NCBI GenBank assembly: GCA_949915775.1
Contig: CATLEG010000002.1
Span: forward strand, 1-64,000
DNA: 64,000 nucleotides
Reading direction: 5' to 3'
From: an uncultured Candidatus Melainabacteria bacterium
GTDB lineage: Bacteria; Cyanobacteriota; Vampirovibrionia; Gastranaerophilales; Gastranaerophilaceae
The notes under the pieces were generated by a model. The model was not told where the DNA came from and did no database searches. It saw only the letters and a list, made by a program, of their open reading frames with translations. Below are positions 59,755 to 61,048 of this stretch, piece after piece; the first letter of the stretch is position 1, and each line of letters begins with the position of its first letter. The position numbers and the translations under genes were made by a program.

Positions 59755-61048
59755 ATGAAATTTATAGATATGACTGGTTATAGAACTTCGGGGGGGGGAA
59801 TCGCAGGTATACCGCTTAATTCGCCACCTAGGTATTGGCGATTTACGTCATGCTGAACTTGATTCAGCATCTCATTCAGTCATTCTGAACGGAGCGAAGA
59901 ATCTCAATTTACCCCTCACCCTAGCCCTGTCTTGGATTTGCTCCACGCTCACAGAGTTTCGCCAAAGTTGCTACGCAACAAAAGGCTCAATCTGTTCGCT
60001 ATCCGGACTCGTTTTACTCCGTCCGTCCGCAAATCCGCTCTCCCTCAAGGGGCGAGGGGAAAGTGTTTTGTGTGCGAAACCTACATCAAAATCTATAAAA
60101 GTTGTACCAATGTCTACCGACAGGGCTACGTGCGTAAAACATATACCAGCATCTTTTAAGTCTTCACCAACATTTACCGGCAGGGCTACGTGCGTAGCAC
60201 ACGATAAGAACTTATCGACCTATAGTCTTAACGTCTTAGAGACTGATAAAACCCCTACCCTCTCCCGAATTTGTAAGTTCGCATATAGCTCACTAACAAA
60301 TTCTACCCTCTCACAAAGAGAGAGGGTAAAATGCCCAGCATTTACACTCGCAGAAACTCTAATCACCCTTGGCATAATCGGTGTTGTGGCGGCGGTGACT
60401 TTGCCATCATTGATACAAAATTATAAAGAAAAAGAAACAGTTGTTCGTTTAAAAAAAGTTTCTTCTGTTTTATCCAATGCTTACACTTTAATGTTATCCG
60501 AAGAAGGAATTCCCGAAGATTGGGGGATGGATACTGATAATTTTGGTGATATATTAACAGAAAAATTTGCCAAATATATTAAAAATGTCAAGATTTGTAA
60601 TCCTGCTAATAAAGAAAAGTGTTTTGAGCAAACCCCAAGAAAAGATTTGCTGAATAATGAGGTTAATGATATGTCAGGTGATTCATCATTGATTATGTCG
60701 GATGGTATGGTTATAGGTTTTAGCTATCAGACTTCTCTTCAACTTTCTGATTGTAGTTTAAATGGTGGTTGTTTTATGATAAATGTTGATATTAATGGTG
60801 ATAAAGGTCCTAACCAATGGGGGGTAGATACTTTTACTTTTCATGCTCTCAGAACCGGTATTCTAGCACGTGGAGATAGAAGTGCAAGTACACGATACTG
60901 CAGTCCTGATACAAATACAACTGCTGCTGGATGGTGGAACGGATCTGGATGTACAGCTTGGGTTTTACAAATGCAAAATTTGGATTATTTGAAATGCGTA
61001 AAAGGCAACCAAAAATATTGTGCTACGCAATATAGCTTTAATCAATAA
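59755..61048 (+). CDS. Type IV pilin/pseudopilin-like protein, out of frame with its putative start because of a poly-G tract (ORF-track ORF 60068..61048)
   Basis: Prepilin-type segment CPAFTLAETLITLGIIGVVAAVTLPSLIQNYKEKE; codons from the G-tract to 60068 in this frame contain no stop; G9 at 59790-59798 offsets ATG 59755 by one nt. Confidence 0.65.
59790..59798 (+). repeat. Poly-G tract (G9)
   Basis: agaacttcGGGGGGGGGaatcgc. Confidence 0.96.
59912..60059. repeat. Dispersed hairpin element, long copy H in pilin leader
   Basis: CCCCTCACCCTAGCCCTGTCTT-GGATTTGC...GCAAATCC-GCTCTCCCTCAAGGGGCGAGGG. Confidence 0.7.
60252..60327. repeat. Dispersed hairpin element, copy I in pilin leader
   Basis: CCCCTACCCTCTCCC-GAATTTGT...ACAAATTC-TACCCTCTCACAAAGAGAGAGGGT. 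Confidence 0.75.

Follow-up and report, generated by a model that had tools for sequence, protein, structure and literature searches.

The locus considered here raises the question of why a gene that seems well furnished for expression should be interrupted almost as soon as it begins, and whether the interruption is a defect or a switch. It lies in the window, a 64,000-nucleotide stretch (bases 1–64000 of contig C2 in a 2.04-Mb assembly of 143 contigs) from an uncultured Candidatus Melainabacteria bacterium of the family Gastranaerophilaceae, and it is a pilin-like gene with a run of nine G residues (G9) shortly after its start codon. A sequence-only reading had proposed that the tract holds this gene in an OFF phase, and the elements it named are all present: a TTGAAA-17-TATAAT promoter, an AAGGAG ribosome binding site (RBS), an ATG at 59755, and the G9 run (Table 1). 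In the assembled frame, translation from this ATG yields 33 amino acids (MKFIDMTGYRTSGGGIAGIPLNSPPRYWRFTSC) before a TGA at 59854–59856, close to the 35 or so codons anticipated; a virtual G8 opens a frame of 430 amino acids and a virtual G11 one of 431, in both of which FTLAETLITLGIIGVVAAVTLP, the prepilin motif, falls near residue 195, in agreement with the suggestion that G8 would carry the frame some 190 codons into that motif. The gene therefore has both a frame that depends on a tract near its start and an intact form in another phase, as slipped-strand phase-variable genes do. We put at roughly three in four the probability that it is one member of an extensive family of type IV pilin-like genes in which slippage during replication of a poly-G or poly-C tract, located just after the start codon, acts as the switch.

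One reason for this view is that the arrangement recurs. A genome-wide scan for such runs, which the sequence-only reading had called for together with a test of enrichment at surface genes, finds 62 G/C runs of at least 8 in the window genome, and in three related genomes the tracts lie mostly on pilin genes. A random genome-sized sequence of 32% G+C would be expected to contain about 0.3 runs of at least 9, and the number of tracts thus exceeds chance. In the material used for genome-level comparison, which consists of the stretches around tracts and around pilin genes, 38 of the 61 window-genome runs are exactly 10 long. In G007 (eight contigs from the genus of the window), one phase leads into a pilin motif for 71 of the 75 tracts analysed, as it does for 24/24 in the further genome G018 and for 26/30 in G062, which represents another genus. 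Genomes of the same genus contain from 0 to 176 G/C runs of at least 9, and across the order high counts are found in several genera of the same family, with no more than 7 in the other families sampled. The same architecture is thus present at dozens of loci per genome with the pilin frames intact. A fortuitous frameshift or gene decay is accordingly very unlikely, and the proposal of an OFF phase-variable pilin locus is supported, with switching as the predicted behavior.

The 5′ ends of these genes are themselves recurrent. In the window genome they are of three kinds: MKRF...NPV-Gn, MFNKTSHIA-Cn, and single examples such as MKFIDMTGYRTS-Gn and MFSIFNC-Cn-LKAFTLAEVL, the last of which carries a normal short prepilin leader. 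An AAGGA or GGAGG sequence lies upstream of nearly all of the other tract-bearing pilin starts. Those of the MKRF type (L045, L046, L063, L072, L075, and L086) have no clear RBS, and their open phase often stops before the pilin motif, so that not every tract in the window genome is accounted for.

We compared the phase of the tracts in 132 tract-bearing pilin genes from four genomes and two genera, each having an ATG with an RBS (or an MKRF-type 5′ end) and a pilin frame that is intact in one phase; because the sample was picked by tract presence and an open frame in some phase was required, the figures describe tract-bearing pilins and not all pilins. In 127 of the 132, only lengths with a residue of 2 modulo 3 (8, 11) are in frame. 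This 8/11 rule holds in all three pre-tract phases (82/84, 30/30, and 15/18), and bases 3′ of the tract must therefore compensate for those that precede it. The rule is too uniform, and the pilin frames are open at too many loci (all 132), for gene decay, which we reject. The assembled tracts are predominantly 10 long (n = 112), with fewer of 9 (n = 9), 11 (n = 10), and 12 (n = 1), and the genes in frame as assembled number 1/112, 0/9, 8/10, and 0/1 at these lengths respectively. Overall, 9/132 are in frame where one third would be expected (p ~3e-13, an overstated value because the paralogues are related). By contrast, in G128 (genus g33) the tracts lie in non-pilin genes, some of which resemble polysaccharide or surface-sugar genes and membrane proteins (L307–L324), and of the 22 long ones among these genes 14 are assembled in frame, mostly at 9–10; the bias towards the off state is therefore tied to pilins and not to tracts as such. 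A few near-identical paralogues differ in length, for example C9/C10, G10/G11, and C10/C11.

These figures also bear on the possibility that every tract is truly a G11 from which one base was lost in sequencing or assembly. Homopolymers are error-prone, the assemblies come from metagenomes, and a uniform offset is what would follow if one base were dropped throughout. However, in-frame G11 pilins have been assembled in both G018 and G062, and the G128 genes just described are in frame at 9–10, which together argue against base loss; moreover, in the controls of PMC9187656 the loss of one base affected a few per cent of reads and not the majority. We consider such an artefact highly improbable.

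Several observations nonetheless weigh against switching by replication slippage. The tight clustering of lengths at 10 (112/132) suits an equilibrium length but would equally suit a fixed recoding site, and slipped-strand slippage alone leaves both this tight length and the uniform rule unexplained. It could be, for example, that the DNA does not change and that RNA polymerase adds a base on G10 or C10, or the ribosome shifts by −1, so that each off-frame gene gives a low level of pilin. A recoding site would be expected to show the same offset throughout (127/132 share one residue) together with a constant length, and all-G or all-C runs are perfect −1 slippery heptamers. Set against this, alleles of G9, G11, and G12 exist, eight of the ten G11 genes are in frame in the DNA itself, and the sequence following the tract varies widely between loci, which at the level of sequence leaves little room for a shared stimulatory structure. 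Known transcriptional slippage in bacteria is mostly on A/T runs. The runs analysed in PMC1088944 were of A and T. Programmed slippage therefore seems to us unlikely, although it is the most serious of the rivals.

A related proposal, that a frameshift-suppressor tRNA decodes four tract bases as one codon, would fit the Gly or Pro codons of the tracts, since the classic frameshift suppressors are tRNAs for these two amino acids. However, reading four bases is a +1 shift, when the modal G10 requires an additional base (or the loss of two), and among the 30 of 38 tRNA hits inspected, the two for Gly and the three for Pro all have anticodon loops of the normal 7 nt. We regard this explanation as scarcely credible, and rejected it on the evidence of the loops.

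A different objection is that the upstream ATG and the tract may be irrelevant, with the pilin starting 3′ of the tract and the upstream frame being a leader open reading frame or fortuitous. In the window gene, a TTG in the pilin frame (60068) opens a frame of 326 amino acids and is a possible, if weak, alternative start. Just 5′ of the motif, a second ATG with an RBS occurs in some pilins, of which many are from G018 (six codons before the motif in several G018 genes); the tract need not control all pilins, therefore. Nevertheless, of the 75 pilins found in the stretches from G007, 65 have a tract but no RBS-bearing in-frame start 3′ of it, and if the upstream frame were irrelevant, the phase rule over the 132 loci would not arise (p ~1e-53, again overstated by relatedness). 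As a general explanation a downstream start is improbable, and somewhat more so than programmed slippage.

The window genome also encodes MutS with a long open frame, and MutS_I occurs in 116 of the order's 119 genomes, with G000, G007, G018, and G062 among them. Slippage should therefore be moderate and not extreme, and loss of MutS, with a hypermutator deficient in mismatch repair as the cause, was rejected. With replication slippage still the favored process, the tight length of 10 and the uniform rule suggest selection for the off state at equilibrium tract lengths.

Switching of this kind would operate as follows. At lengths of 9 and 10, translation would stop within about 15–40 codons and no pilin would be produced; slippage to 8 or 11 would join the start to the pilin frame, and prepilin peptidase would presumably cut the leader off before FTLAE. 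Because both of the common lengths are off, any given locus would be off in most cells, and with dozens of loci per genome each cell would present a small and changing subset of pilins. We infer that tract lengths are mixed within populations, that the genes are expressed when on, and that the leader is removed and the product displayed on the surface; what is observed directly are the tracts, their frames, the intact genes, and the 8/11 rule, with its recurrence in several genomes. For the broadest version of this model the odds are about even: that the Gastranaerophilaceae maintain a combinatorial, default-off repertoire of dozens to perhaps more than 100 pilin genes, each with its own G/C tract, and that selection has set their frames to be closed at 9 and 10 and open at the rare 8 and 11, giving a small random subset per cell.

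The assignment of the product to the type IV pilin-like proteins is sound. The FTLAE sequence followed by a hydrophobic helix is a prepilin cleavage and methylation N-terminus (x|FTLxE), and TIGR02532 and PF07963 match the protein, mainly at its N-terminus and below their curated cut-offs. A structure model (mean predicted local distance difference test score, pLDDT, 87.5) has an N-terminal helix spanning residues 3–55 followed by a mixed head, and a fold search against the PDB returned no significant match to a solved structure. The 34 aligned relatives have in common FTLAE at the start and a few residues further on, and a gene for a prepilin peptidase (PF01478) is present at G000:C139. At several loci (L040, L045, L066, L093, and others) the prepilin motif is partly duplicated in series just 5′ of the real one, as in KYGFTLAEVFSPCRKVKLNFGFTLAEVLITLG.

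The long leader is a further feature of the window gene. Between tract and motif it comprises about 190 codons, with some 490 nt of repeats; a search with it gives 96 matches within the window genome, many of which stop at a pilin motif or immediately 5′ of it, and its peptides are found in the identical frame at more than 25 loci. Leaders in G007 and G018 are mostly short. Frame-preserving inserts in the leader may be tolerated because prepilin peptidase would remove it. The palindromic elements of Rickettsia are dispersed repeats inserted within reading frames that remain unbroken, and the leader repeats resemble them in keeping frame, with the difference that the leader is expected to be cleaved off; the likeness is one of description and is offered as a lead only. 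The ratio of nonsynonymous to synonymous polymorphism (pN/pS) in the G007 and G018 leaders gave no clear frame signal, and codon-level selection on the leader was accordingly dropped as support; for the mature part, no equal-length pairs passed the filter.

Table 1. Features of the tract-bearing pilin-like gene, in window coordinates.
Feature	Position	Strand	Description
Putative sigma-70-type promoter	59705..59733	+	TTGAAA 59705–59710, 17-nt spacer, TATAAT 59728–59733; read from sequence
RBS AAGGAG	59741..59746	+	8 nt 5′ of ATG; from sequence and recurrence of AAGGA/GGAGG
Start codon and pre-tract leader MKFIDMTGYRTS	59755..59789	+	Read from sequence
G9 tract	59790..59798	+	Pilin frame joined at 8 or 11, not at 9 or 10
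Assembled reading frame, off state	59755..59856	+	33 amino acids, then stop
Repeat-mosaic leader between tract and prepilin motif	59845..60332	+	Open in the pilin frame; pieces dispersed in the genome
Pilin-like protein from predicted cleavage point FTLAETLITLGIIG, with stop	60341..61048	+	235 amino acids; long N-terminal helix and mixed head

The gene adjoins one for a 490-residue protein with an FHIPEP (FlhA-type) C-terminal region (61052–62524, minus strand), which is conserved in 37 related loci; a second FHIPEP relative of about 705 amino acids is encoded elsewhere in the genome. Only one of the 37 relatives, L099, has a pilin gene beside the FHIPEP-like gene, and there the opposite neighbor is a different gene, which leaves no clean same-locus comparison of tract length for the window gene. 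Elsewhere, L109 has a tract-bearing pilin gene of about 0.9 kb (14150–15068) that is missing, between conserved flanks, from its approximately 91% identical counterpart L106 (8608–8629), and a difference of the same kind separates L114 (14066–15030) from L115 (14066–14100), which are 99.4% identical over 14 kb. It appears as if pilin genes are gained or lost as units of about 0.9 kb.

The window contains one other tract. As had been noted, its G runs of at least 9 number just two; they are in fact the only G/C runs of at least 7, namely a G10 at 4358 and the G9 at 59790, and each is one nucleotide from joining a long frame. The G10 (4358–4367) lies within a long, repeat-rich, surface-protein-like frame (2820–6085) that is out of frame as assembled, with about 512 open codons 5′ of the tract and 572 after it, which would be united by lengths such as 9 or 12 alone; this rescue phase differs from the 8/11 of the pilin tracts. 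A Pfam search of the G10 frame gave no match.

We found no earlier report of phase variation in the Gastranaerophilales in the open-access literature searched, partly as titles and abstracts only, nor do we know of a shared single-residue rule among the phase-variable genes of Neisseria meningitidis. Among the closest parallels is Bifidobacterium breve UCC2003, also a gut commensal, whose pilus loci bbr_0113 and bbr_1889 each have a G-tract early in a pilus gene that determines whether the frame is continuous; at bbr_1889 about 93% of cells have G10 (off) and 6.5% have G9 (on) (PMC9187656). There, however, two loci encode sortase-dependent pili that are on at n−1 (PMC9187656), whereas here each genome has type IV pilin-like genes by the dozen, their tracts are of G in some and of C in others, and one 8/11 rule is common to them. 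Campylobacter jejuni NCTC11168 has 29 loci with intragenic poly-G or poly-C tracts of at least 7 (PMC4965091), in genes of mixed kinds; ours belong mostly to one family, and some relatives have far more tracts (up to 176 of at least 9). For N. meningitidis, PMC5084427 reports 115 phase-variable genes with simple sequence repeats. This is a similarly large repertoire of repeat-switched genes, in which repeat units and gene types are varied.

The genome-wide pattern of pilin tracts is of more interest than the single locus in the window. In these genomes, a good part of the pilin repertoire is probably overlooked or cut short by automatic gene calling. Poly-G phase variation is well known from Bifidobacterium and a few pathogens, but the literature searched shows no case of it in the non-photosynthetic gut relatives of the cyanobacteria. 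The question of joint selection on modal tract length and reading frame becomes testable with public reads, and so many loci of one family following one phase rule would illustrate with unusual clarity how selection can act on the duty cycle of contingency loci. Dozens of pilin genes per genome, nearly all with a slippery run whose usual length is off, suggest a very large stochastic switch system for surface fibers.
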